Shown piece by piece: positions 4,825-30,486 of a stretch of 64,000 bases of DNA (positions within the stretch are counted from its first letter, which is position 1; each line of letters begins with the position of its first letter). The notes beneath the pieces were generated by a model. That model saw only the letters and a list, made by a program, of their open reading frames with translations. It did not search any database and was not told where the DNA came from. Both the position numbers and the translations under genes were made by a program. The stretch is from Tachypleus tridentatus (Eukaryota; Arthropoda; Merostomata; Xiphosura; Limulidae): positions 19,833,396-19,897,395 of the forward strand of contig NC_134833.1 in assembly GCF_004210375.1 (NCBI RefSeq). Direction: 5' to 3'.

Positions 4825-5305
4825 CCTCTTCAGCTGCAGAGCGATCTGTCTGCGGACTTACAACGTTAAAACCCGGGCTTCGTACCCGTGCTGGGAAAAG
4901 CACAGATAGCCCTTTGTGCAGCTTTGTGCTTAACTACAAACAACAAGACGTACCTTAAGTTCCCCAGTGGCACAGTGGTTTGTCTACGGATTTACAACGT
5001 TAAAAACCGGCTTCGTACCCGTGCTGGGAAAAGCACAGATAGCCCTTTGTGCAGCTTTGTGCTTAACTACAAACAACAAGACGTACCTTAAGTTCCCCAG
5101 TGGCACAGTGGTTTGTCTACGGATTTACAACGTTAAAAACCGGACTTCGTACCTGTGCTGGGAAAAGCACAGATAGCCCTTTGTGCAGCTTTATGCTTAA
5201 CTACAAACAACAAGACGTACCTTAAGTTCCACAGTGGCACAGTGGTTTGTCTACGGATTTACAACGTTAAAAACCGGCCTTCGTACCTGTGATGGGAAAG
5301 ATCAC
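4825..5305 (+). repeat. Tandem array of SINE-B, unit about 133 bp
   Basis: Four successive SINE-B units in direct orientation. Each has the head (CAGTGGCACAGTGGTTTGTC), TTACAACGTTAAAA, a CTTCGTACC region and the AGCACAGATAGCCCTTTGTG body, ending in ACAAACAACAAGACGTACCTTAAG. The junction TTCCCCAGTGG recurs at about 4960, 5093 and 5227. The short linker ACGTACCTTAAGTTCC is shared by all junctions, so the array grew by tandem duplication of a SINE plus flank, not by independent insertions. The open frames across it are repeat artefacts. Confidence 0.85.
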
Positions 5306-5539
5306 AGTGTATATATAATACGAAATTTATAAAGGAACGGTTTGGAATGAGTTACGTTGTGTTGTAGTTAAAAAGCGCAAAAATAAATAAATAAATAGGA
5401 TGACAAAGAAGGCAGACGTGCGAGGACTTTGATTTTAATTAGTGTTAATTCTACAATAAATATACCACGTAGCCTTGATTATTTCACAACAAATTTAAAA
5501 TTAATTAGCTTTGTTTCGTTATTTATAAATAATTTGTTT

Positions 5540-14110: not shown

Positions 14111-15179
14111 ATAACACACACACAAAGGAAAGGATACACTTTTTATTATACCAGCTGAAAGAATTAGCTCCAATTATTTTGTTTCGAAGGCTACTCTTGT
14201 GAACATTATTCAGAGATTTTCAGCTTTGTTTTGTTTCATTTTCAGATACCAGGTGTTATTTGAACATAATATTATTTTTGAGAAACTATCCTATTTTATA
14301 CTAGATTAATTTTCTCAGTTATTTTCCTTGTTTTATGAGAACCTAAGTGTGACAGAAGTGAAAAAAAAAGGAATTTCTGACATACTTTTGTGATTATTAT
14401 GGCTCTCCTTGGATATTCCATCCATAAGAATCTATGCAAGATTTTTGCCATGTATTGGTCACACTGACACACATAAGGTCAACTTTCACATCCTTTCGTG
14501 ATCATACGTGTCTTAAGGTGCTAACTTGTTGTTATTAAAAGTGATTACCGAATTCTTTTCTGTACAGTAAATATACCGTCAGCACAAGTCGATAGACACG
14601 CAATGCATTTGGAGTTCAAAGGCCAGTATTAACAGAGGGCTAAGTACACATATTCATTATTTGGAAGAAAACCTGTAGATAGAGGCATCTGAACCAACAA
14701 TATTTGTTTTCATACACACGATAAAAAAACAACAACACACACACAAAACACAAACAACGATAGTTCTTTTGACTATGTTGGAGGTTAATACGTCTATTGG
14801 CGCGTTGATTTATATAGTTTAAGGGGAGATTCTCGAATGTTCAACAATGTTCGAAAACACGTTAGACTTTTCGTAAAACAAATATTGTTGATTATTAAGA
14901 ACTCTGTTTGTGTAATGTGATGAACTGCTACATATTTTTTTGATAAGAGAGTGAAGCCAATGGAAATTTTGTGCATACACTCTCATGTAACACACATTAA
15001 AGTTTCATTCTTTAAATACTGTTTAAAATAGGTAAATTACTGGTGCGTGACTCGTACTAAAATTTTCCAAACTAGAAAAAAAAACAATACCGAAAACAAT
15101 AACCAATACGTGTTTTAACAAATGAAAACTAAAAAGTCAAACCATATCAGAGTTTAACTGTGTGTTATTAATGTATCTG
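14111..15179. other. AT-rich intergenic DNA
   Basis: Contains short AC and AAC runs near 14111-14124 and 14733-14756. No exon or larger repeat was recognised. Confidence 0.5.
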
Positions 15180-25767: not shown

Positions 25768-25895
25768 TTTTGATCCCCAGTATTACAGCAATATAAAAAA
25801 AAAGTATAACTTCAAATTTGAAGCTCAAAATCCTGCGATTGGCAGGGGCGCAGATAACTCATTCTGTGGCTTTTCGCTTGGGAACAAAGAAAAAA
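25768..25895 (+). repeat. Possible degenerate SINE-C
   Basis: CCCAGTATTACAGCAATA at the head side, and GGGGCGCAGATAACTCATTC / TGTGGCTTTTCGC near the end, match the SINE-C layout loosely. The middle is A-rich and unrecognisable. Confidence 0.4.
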
Positions 25896-25897
25896 AA

Positions 25898-28800
25898 GTA
25901 TTACTCAAATTATACCACTTCGCTATCTGTGCTTTTCATTGTTAAGCAGTAAACTACTCAACTGGCTACCTGTGCTCTTCATTGTTAAGCAGTAAACTAC
26001 TCAGCTGGCTATTTGTGCTCTTCATTGTTAAGCAGTAAACTACTCAGCTGGCTATTTGTGCTCTTCATTGTTAAGCAGTAAACTACTCAACTGGCTCCCT
26101 GTGCTCTTCATTGTTAAGCAATAAACTACTCAGCTGGCTACCTGTGCTCTTCATTGTTAAGCAGTAAATTACTCAGCTGGCTACCTGTGCTCTTCATTGT
26201 TAAGCAGTAAACTACTCAACTGGCTACCTGTGCTCTTCATTGTTAAGCAGTAAATTACTCAACTGGCTACCTGTGCTCTTCATTGTTAAGCAGTAAATTA
26301 CTCAACTGGCTACCTGTGCTCTTCATTGTTAAGCAATAAACTACTCAGCTGGCTACCTGTGCTCTTCATTGTTAAGCAGTAAACTACTCAACTGGCTACC
26401 TGTGCTCTTCATTGTTAAGCAGTAAACTACTCAGCTGACTACCTGTGTTCTTCATTGTTAAGCAGTAAACTACTCAGCTGGCTACCTGTGCTCTTCATTG
26501 TTAAGCAGTAAACAACTCAGCTGGCTACCTGTGCTCTTCATTGTTAAGCAGTAAATTACTCAACTGGCTACCTGTGCTCTTCATTGTTAAGCAGTAAACT
26601 ACTCAACTGGCTACCTGTGCTCTTCATTGTTAAGCAGTAAACCACTCAACTGGCTACCTGTGCTCTTCATTGTTAAGCAGAAAATTACTCAACTGGCTAC
26701 CTGTGCTCTTCATTGTTAAGCAGTAAACTACTCAACTGGCTACCTGTGCTCTTCATTGTTAAGCAGTAAACAACTCAGCTAGCTACCTGTGCTCTTCATT
26801 GTTAAGCAGTAAATTACTCAACTGGCTACCTGTGCTCTTTATTGTTAAGCAGTAAACTACTCAACTGGCTACCTGTGCTCTTCATTGTTAAGCAGTAAAC
26901 CACTCAACTGGCTACCTGTGCTCTTCATTGTTAAGCAGTAAATTACTCAACTGGCTACCTGTGCTCTTCATTGTTAAGCAGTAAACTACTCAGCTGGATA
27001 CCTGTGCTCTTCATTGTTAAGCAGTAAATTACTCAACTGGCTTCCTGTGCTCTTCATTGTTAAGCAGTAAACAACTCAACTGGCTACCTGTGCTCTTCAT
27101 TGTTAAGCAGTAAATTACTCAACTGGCTACCTGTGCTCTTCATTGTTAAGCAGTAAACTACTCAACTGGCTACCTGTGCTCTTCATTGTTAAGCAGTAAA
27201 TTACTCAACTGGCTACCTGTGCTCTTCATTGTTAAGCAGTAAACTACTCAGCTGGATACCTGTGCTCTTCATTGTTAAGCAGTAAATTACTCAACTGGCT
27301 TCCTGTGCTCTTCATTGTTAAGCAGTAAACAACTCAGCTGGCTACCTGTGCTCTTTATTGTTAAGCAGTAAATTACTCAACTGGCTACCTGTGCTCTTCA
27401 TTGTTAAGCAGTAAAGTACTCAGCTGGATACCTGTGTTCTTCATTGTTAAGCAGTAAACTACTCAGCTGGATACCTGTGCTCTTCATTGTTAAGCAGTAA
27501 ATTACTCAACTGGCTTCCTGTGCTCTTCATTGTTAAGCAGTAAACAACTCAGCTGGCTACCTGTGCTCTTTATTGTTAAGCAGTAAATTACTCAACTGGC
27601 TGCCTGTGCTCTTCATTGTTAAGCAGTAAACTACTCAGCTGGCTACCTGTGCTCTTCATTGTTAAGCAGTAAATTACTCAACTGGCTACCTGTGCTCTTC
27701 ATTGTTAAGCAATAAACTACTCAGCTGGCTACCTGTGCTCTTCATTGTTAAGCAGTAAACTACTCAACTGGCTACCTGTGCTCTTCATTGTTAAGCAGTA
27801 AACTACTCAGCTGACTACCTGTGTTCTTCATTGTTAAGCAGTAAACTACTCAGCTGGCTACCTGTGCTCTTCATTGTTAAGCAGTAAACAACTCAGCTGG
27901 CTACCTGTGCTCTTCATTGTTAAGCAGTAAATTACTCAACTGGCTACCTGTGCTCTTCATTGTTAAGCAGTAAACTACTCAACTGGCTACCTGTGCTCTT
28001 CATTGTTAAGCAGTAAACCACTCAACTGGCTACCTGTGCTCTTCATTGTTAAGCAGAAAATTACTCAACTGGCTACCTGTGCTCTTCATTGTTAAGCAGT
28101 AAACTACTCAGCTGGATACCTGTGCTCTTCATTGTTAAGCAGTAAATTACTCAACTGGCTTCCTGTGCTCTTCATTGTTAAGCAGTAAACAACTCAGCTG
28201 GCTACCTGTGCTCTTTATTGTTAAGCAGTAAATTACTCAACTGGCTACCTGTGCTCTTCATTGTTAAGCAGTAAACTACTCAACTGGCTACCTGTGCTCT
28301 TCATTGTTAAGCAGTAAACCACTCAACTGGCTACCTGTGCTCTTCATTGTTAAGCAGTAAATTACTCAACTGGCTACCTGTGCTCTTCATTGTTAAGCAG
28401 TAAACTACTCAGCTGGATACCTGTGCTCTTCATTGTTAAGCAGTAAATTACTCAACTGGCTTCCTGTGCTCTTCATTGTTAAGCAGTAAACAACTCAGCT
28501 GGCTACCTGTGCTCTTTATTGTTAAGCAGTAAATTACTCAACTGGCTACCTGTGCTCTTCATTGTTAAGCAGTAAAGTACTCAACTGGCTACCTGTGCTC
28601 TTCATTGTTAAGCAGTAAATTACTCAACTGGCTACCTGTGCTCTTCATTGTTAAGCAGTAAACTACTCAGCTGGATACCTGTGCTCTTCATTGTTAAGCA
28701 GTAAATTACTCAACTGGCTTCCTGTGCTCTTCATTGTTAAGCAGTAAACAACTCAGCTGGCTACCTGTGCTCTTTATTGTTAAGCAGTAAATTACTCAAC

Positions 28801-29331
28801 TGGCTACCTGTGCTCTTCATTGTTAAGCAGTAAATTACTCAACTGGCTTCCTGTGCTCTTCATTGTTAAGCAGTAAATTACTCAACTGGCTACCTGTGCT
28901 CTTCATTGTTAAGCAGTAAACTACTCAGCTGGCTACCTGTGCTCTTCATTGTTAAGCAGTAAATTACTCAACTGGCTTCCTGTGCTCTTCATTGTTAAGC
29001 AGTAAACAACTCAGCTGGCTACCTGTGCTCTTTATTGTTAAGCAATTAACTTTCAGCTGGCTACCTGTGCTCTTCATTGTTAAGCAGTAAACTACTCAAC
29101 TGGCTACCTGTGCTCTTCATTGTTAAGCAATAAACTACTCAACTGGCTATCTGTGCTCTTCATTGTTAAGCAGTAAACTACTCAACTGGCTACCTGTGCT
29201 CTTCATTGTTAAGCAATAAACTACTCAACTGGCTACCTGTGCTCTTCATTGTTAAGCAATAAACTACTCAACTGGCTATCTGTGCTCTTCATTGTTAAGC
29301 AGTAAACTACTCAACTGGCTATCTGTGCTAT
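25898..29331 (+). repeat. 43-bp satellite-like array, about 79 copies, with higher-order structure
   Basis: Monomer TTAAGCAGTAAACTACTCAA / CTGGCTACCTGTGCTCTTCA / TTG. The GTTAAGC anchor runs from 25941 to 29294, 78 periods of 43 bp less one base; the lost base is in the monomer near 29041. Monomer types (AAATTACTCAA, AACAACTCAG, CTGGATACC, CTGGCTTCC, CTTTATTG) recur in fixed order, giving higher-order units of 5-7 monomers in the right half. A block of about 440 bp at 26288-26730 is repeated at 27664-28106, exactly 32 monomers (1376 bp) apart. The right end runs without a break into a SINE-B remnant. Confidence 0.97.
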
Positions 29332-29402
29332 GCCTACCGCGGATATAGAAATCTGATTTTTAACGTAACAGACATTCAAACTTACTGCCAAGCCACCAGT
29401 TA
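29294..29402 (-). repeat. SINE-B remnant at the edge of the 43-bp array
   Basis: From the last monomer the sequence continues GGCTATCTGTGCTATGCCTA, CCGCGGATATAGAAATCTGA, TTTTTAACG and GCCAAGCCACCAGT. This matches a minus-strand SINE-B from its 3' body to its head. The last monomer itself (TTAAGCAGTAAACTACTCAA) aligns with the SINE's TTAAGCACAAAGCTACACAA. Confidence 0.8.
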
Positions 29403-30486
29403 AGAGTTTAAGTTTTATGAAAGATCGTCGCTTAATGTTTATCGTTCTAATATTAAACGTTGTTTTTTTCTGGAAACGGAAAACTGAATTGAAAATTCAG
29501 CCCATGTTTAGCAGATAGATGCTCATGGTAGGTTCTGTACAACAGACTTAGAAGAAAGGAATATTTACATACTTCGTAGTGTAGTAGCTACCAACAATTT
29601 TATTACACTTATAAGCTCTTTCTTGTCACGTATTTCACTCGACTTTACTACATTTATTACTCATATTCCTCATTCCACGATATGTCATTAACCTAGCTGG
29701 TTTTTTTTTTGTCTTGTATTTAACTTTACCTTCTATCTCGTGATGTCACTGGCAGTTCTTATGTTTATTAATCTTATACGAATTTGATTGTGTTGGTTTT
29801 TCTTTCAAACCTTATTTTTGACAGTCTGTTAATTTTTCAAATGTAAATATATACAATTAAGCCTTCTCATTCTAAATAATATTTACCTTACTACAAGTTA
29901 AGTCAAAGGTCAAAGTATATCTCTCCTAGCTTAACCCTTCTTTGGCGTACTGTCACGCTACCTGTTGTTCAGTTGTTACTGAAGATATTAATACATAGGA
30001 TCGTTTCGTGTTTCTTTTATTTTTGTTTAGATCATTTAACCAACAGAAAGTTATTATTTGAGAACCACCAACAGATGGGAAGTAATACATTAAATTAACC
30101 ATCATACAACTTGTAACAAGCATTGTACTGATTATAAATTTTAAACAGAATCCGTTCTTTTGAAAAAATATTAATAAAATCAAATATATTACAAAATACG
30201 TGGTGGTTTTATAAACTGTAACATACATTCACATATACATAAAAGGAAAAACCAGCCATTATTAAAATAAACAAGTTAGCATTTTGAAATAAACTTATTG
30301 CGACCTAAATAGCAATTAGTGTTTTAATTTAAAATGAATAAACTTAATCTGATAACGGCATGAAAAACAAAATAAAACAGTTACAAATGCAACATAAAGT
30401 TTAAAGAAACAATACTTATTTTTAAGGGAAGTTGGAATGGCCAGACTAGTTTCCAAGTATATGATGTTTGAATTACAAGAGTTGGC
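29403..30486. other. AT-rich intergenic DNA, nothing recognised
   Basis: Open frames here (for example 29953-30228, minus) lack domains or supporting signals. Confidence 0.5.

Follow-up and report, generated by a model that had tools for sequence, protein, structure and literature searches.

The 43-bp array and the SINE remnants beside it

The window analysed here (the whole stretch of DNA, positions 1-64000) contains 20 tandem arrays with a period of at least 15, which together occupy 13,406 of its 64,000 bases (21%). Running TRF on these 64 kb delimited a minisatellite on the minus strand at positions 25922-29329, with a period of 43, 79.3 copies and 93% matches, in agreement with the sequence-only reading, which had counted about 79 copies of about 43 bp. 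When cut into monomers, the array yields 79 units. One is 42 bp long and the other 78 have the full 43 bp; these 78 fall into 26 distinct forms and share a mean pairwise identity of 94.5%. The unit corresponds, in SINE orientation, to the 3' region GAGCACAG...CAAA of a SINE. A 21-mer specific to the array was searched throughout the genome: all 79 forward matches fall within 25922-29329, placing the array at a single locus, and 3 reverse matches were recovered elsewhere at 2 mismatches, against 1 for the control.

At its right end the array passes into a minus-strand SINE of the SINE-B family without a break, as had been read from the letters. Positions 39-110 of the SINE consensus align without any gap to 29295-29366 (minus strand), across the junction between array and SINE, with 57 identities out of 72 (0/1000 shuffles). 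When the comparison is limited to sequence beyond the TRF array (29330-29405), the top alignment with the SINE has 28/36 identities, a score that again none of 1000 shuffles reached. The head had been drawn as far as 29402; the part up to 29366 lies within the local alignment, whereas the weakly SINE-like stretch at about 29367-29402 (minus strand), seen in global but not in local alignments, is probably the poorly conserved outermost head. The nine other SINE copies of the window are 82-92% identical to the consensus and the focal SINE is 79% identical over its best 72 positions, so that it looks like an old copy. The flank to the right of the SINE, used to look for a paralogous locus without the expansion, matched itself only, with no second copy, in a genome search that skips very common words.

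To the left of the array lies a plus-strand remnant of another SINE, comprising its tail half (25832-25895), which aligns to the SINE-B consensus with 44 identities, 19 mismatches and 1 gap (score 22, 0/1000 shuffles). The array is thus flanked by two SINE remnants pointing tail to tail. A short stretch with no recognisable monomer (25896-25921) separates the left remnant from the array. The start of the array had been placed at 25898, about 24 bp too far left: it begins near 25922, and a degenerate monomer prolonging it leftwards was rejected as not significant, since the best score of segment 25886-25924 against the monomers was equalled or exceeded in 37 of 500 shuffles. Inspecting the left end of the array by eye, we found neither the 3' terminus of the focal SINE nor a target-site duplication. 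The earlier proposal that the amplification took place inside the SINE is therefore borne out on the head side, but on the left the original 3' tail could not be located.

The SINE families of the window

Alignment of 11 other SINE copies of the window separated two families, which have different bodies and a common 3' module (GCACAGATAGCCC...TTTGTGC). The focal SINE groups with the shorter one, SINE-B. Allowing at most 2 mismatches out of 31, the SINE-B tail was found at 14,266 + 14,249 = 28,515 places of the genome, and the reversed pattern used as a control at 0. As regards a tRNA-like head with pol III boxes, as in tRNA-derived SINEs, the SINE consensus contains a GGTTTCGATACC stretch resembling a B box, and ARAGORN called no tRNA within the window. 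These elements may resemble the SINEs of horseshoe crabs.

Similarity between the repeat unit and the SINE

The monomer had been noted to resemble a segment of the SINE. This likeness was assessed by aligning the doubled monomer with a SINE consensus built from 9 copies of the window, none of them taken from the array. The resulting score of 23 was reached by 0 of 5000 dinucleotide-preserving shuffles, whose maximum was 18. Without gaps, the full 43-bp unit and the SINE share 32 identical positions out of 43 (31/43 with a second consensus), and the resemblance thus stands.

As a control, 13 other minisatellite units of the window were compared with the SINE and none of them exceeded all of its own 500 shuffles, the lowest count being 24/500; this set omitted some TRF rows, including an array of 134-bp units that does match the SINE. 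A SINE origin was accordingly rejected for the 13 units of this list. In a second test, covering 75 arrays with a period of at least 15 (211,021 bases), 20 units scored higher than every one of their 100 shuffles. Sixteen of these correspond to the doubled-tail places for which loci had been fetched, and the remaining 4 are the window arrays starting at 4847 and 25922 and two arrays in fetched loci (L044 2924-2972 and L052 1835-2095). Of the 20 arrays in the window, only those at 4847 and 25922 passed this test against the two SINE consensus sequences. The former (4847-5307) is a second SINE-born array, in which a 134-bp unit made of a near-whole SINE-B and a short spacer is repeated 3.4 times.

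None of the present units of the 43-bp array is close to the SINE consensus. At 8 of the 43 positions none of the 78 full-length units retains the SINE letter, and 7 of these positions carry one fixed letter; the unit adjoining the head is no exception. Being shared even by this unit, these changes probably predate the amplification, or else were homogenised. We also noticed, after the fact, that at unit position 5 a SINE-like T is restricted to units 1, 3, 4, 76 and 79, close to both ends of the array, where it would be expected to survive if the ends are homogenised least. A test of end against interior units gave p 0.00015 for 10 end units, the limits of the ends having been chosen post hoc. 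The opposite pattern exists as well, with SINE-like letters found only in the interior at position 16 (units 22, 34, 39, 54, 61 and 67) and at position 29 (units 18 and 50).

Internal structure of the array

The mean identity between units was calculated as a function of their lag over the first 72 units and compared with 500 permutations. At lags 6, 13, 33 and 39 it lies above all 500 permutations, as does the best lag out of 40. Direct neighbours (lag 1) show an identity that 499 of the 500 permutations equal or exceed, and lag 32 is unremarkable among the ten lags printed, being reached by 90/500. Units 9-18 are repeated exactly as units 41-50. No exact repeat inside the array is longer than 472 bp, the length of a block at 26263-26734 that recurs at 27639-28110 with a shift of 1376 = 32 x 43. 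Taken together, the lag identities, the repeated run of ten units and the 472-bp block suggest that the array grew largely by blocks of many units.

Other SINE-born arrays and dimers in the genome

Other arrays were surveyed by anchoring the search on the SINE tail motif, so that the counts are not to be read as a rate. A pattern requiring two exact copies of the tail motif at a distance of 20-50 bases was matched 58 + 52 times in the genome, and the reversed pattern 0 times. Among the 100 matches listed out of 110, 57 clusters could be distinguished, 18 of which hold at least 2 listed matches; some clusters are copies within segmental duplications, for instance L044/L045 and L050/L051.

The clearest parallel to the focal array is locus L049, where the head and the 3' end of a SINE-B are both visible and enclose 6.0 copies of a 42-bp unit drawn from an overlapping segment, with no tail run between the units. 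Further SINE arrays, with other unit edges, were found in L043 (34 bp x 4.0), L050 (46 bp x 4.2), L059 (51 bp x 12.0), L060 (54 bp x 6.0) and L061 (62 bp x 4.7). In the two segmental copies L044 (3746-4230) and L045 (3788-4274), a 5'-truncated SINE-B tail is repeated 8.3 times. By eye, the repeated tail in L044 is bracketed by copies of an 11-bp sequence from the flank and the unit includes the flanking AAGGTTGCTCC, as if it had been duplicated between target-site repeats. Loci L047 (3930-4037) and L048 (3900-4062), 23 kb apart, have in common a 57-bp unit and its junction, present in 1.9 and 2.9 copies respectively. Since the BLAST matches listed between these two loci do not exceed 169 bp, a SINE bearing an array may have moved or recombined.

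Twenty-eight loci were examined, and the match at the junction was read in two-copy cases, as it is not readable in this way in arrays with more copies. Three two-copy loci are identical over the full unit, with an extra junction match of 0 (L041), 0 (L042) and 1 bp (L039), and in L050 the motif CCCTC was seen by eye at both unit edges. Little or no junction homology (0, 0 and 1 bp) is thus enough to start arrays in at least some cases. Seventeen loci (L041, L052, L054, L055, L057 and L062-L073) contain a SINE with a second tail joined at an A/C-rich run, mostly just before GCTAGCACAG or GCACAG. The two tails are non-identical in 16 of the 17 pairs, which suggests either template jumping or a second insertion that was truncated; the identical pair of L041 looks like a later DNA duplication.

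Overall, the dimers and arrays represent many degrees of expansion, between a pair of copies with 100% identity and 79 copies, and their unit edges differ. We raise only tentatively, and as somewhat improbable, the idea that the 3' module of the two SINE families is a recurrent start point for tandem arrays; the search having been anchored on this module, it says nothing on a preference over other parts of the SINE. Some arrays may have been started by the insertion itself, as the tail-to-tail dimers and the truncated tail between 11-bp flanking repeats (L044) illustrate. If so, retrotransposition would directly sow minisatellites.

Origin of the array

From the comparisons above, the 43-bp minisatellite, confined to a single locus, very probably formed in situ out of an individual old SINE. 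The direction from SINE to array, which had been advanced as an inference, is well supported: the SINE tail occurs at 28,515 places and the array-specific forward matches at one locus only, so that the SINE family cannot descend from the array.

That a SINE landed within or next to a pre-existing array unrelated to it, their resemblance being coincidental, is a very improbable reading. The array and the SINE do adjoin and minisatellites abound in the window, but the match between unit and SINE lies far beyond that of shuffled sequences (0/5000) and the SINE alignment crosses the junction ungapped. An insertion into an array also fits poorly with the array being found on the tail side only, while the flank beyond the head gave no other copy in the genome search that skips very common words. 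It is even harder to believe that the array came first and that the SINE family acquired its 3' region from this satellite or a similar one. The 3' segment is common to two SINE families with different bodies, and so behaves as a module that can be acquired; against this stand the 28,515 dispersed tails, compared with one array locus that lacks the SINE letter at 8 positions.

Derivation of the array from the SINE is compatible with a variant in which the first duplication happened during retrotransposition, by template jumping or a second truncated insertion leaving two tails in a row, and later growth took place at the DNA level. Such a start would find precedents in 16 of the 28 examined loci, where a second, non-identical tail is joined at an A/C-rich run just before GCACAG, and the focal unit begins at nearly the same place as these second-tail joins. 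We nevertheless consider it unlikely here. The focal unit has no A/C-rich run between tails, nor do the units of L049, and the 51-bp copies of L041 are identical down to their private variant and the final bases of the tail, which points to a duplication at the DNA level after insertion.

Under the preferred derivation from an inserted SINE, the element would have inserted and aged, and a segment of about 43 bp, which begins immediately ahead of GCACAG and ends where the A/C-rich tail starts, would then have been tandemly duplicated, probably through an error of break repair or template switching that requires little homology. Subsequent growth would have proceeded by unequal exchange or by renewed duplication of blocks comprising many units. 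No functional role has to be invoked for the 43-bp array, nor is one suggested.

Comparison with known systems

In their survey of the human genome, Ahmed and Liang (2012, PMC3389668) describe 7,276 repeats derived from TEs and 5,747 single-locus clusters, one of their examples being 17 copies of 52 bp from AluJo. The present array resembles the human TE-derived minisatellites as that survey describes them in having a unit taken from part of a SINE, a single locus and a local expansion. Set against the survey's definitions, its unit is longer than 20 bp, is present in at least 2 copies, matches a TE consensus (0/5000 shuffles) and has a G+C content of 18/43, above the 40% filter. The mean pairwise identity of the 78 units, 94.5%, falls just under the 95% filter, which is a survey filter and not a biological criterion. 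It differs from the AluJo example in its SINE family and genome and in its length, 79 units against 17.

The squamate sSats described by Vassetzky et al. (2023, PMC10702118) have units of about 70-290 nt, occur at many loci in some species and show a subtelomeric preference; whether they are restricted to squamates is called uncertain there, and the genome studied here is presumably not a squamate one. As in these sSats, the unit of the present array is a piece of a SINE, the terminal unit runs into the remaining SINE (here at the right end), variants alternate and origins are independent. In contrast to the sSats as characterized in that work, the unit is only 43 bp long and confined to one locus, with no homogenisation between loci, and the array lies away from the subtelomeric position they prefer, at C9:19.86 Mb, that is 19.86 Mb into a contig of 169.0 Mb. 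The reviews PMC6947457 and PMC9659126 mention mouse B1-derived (GGCAGA)n VNTRs, human Alu-derived minisatellites and the salamander Hy/Pol III case. These are likewise tandem repeats derived from SINEs or SINE-like elements, although from other parts and other SINEs.

SINE-derived minisatellites are thus already known in human, mouse and squamates, with related satellites in salamanders, and the locus studied here is a long and well-preserved further example. It illustrates clearly how a repeat of one type turns into a repeat of another type while remaining joined to its parent. With smaller SINE-born arrays forming a graded series in the same genome, it becomes possible to ask how such arrays start, a question for which established start mechanisms explained only about 6% of the human cases according to the human survey (PMC3389668).
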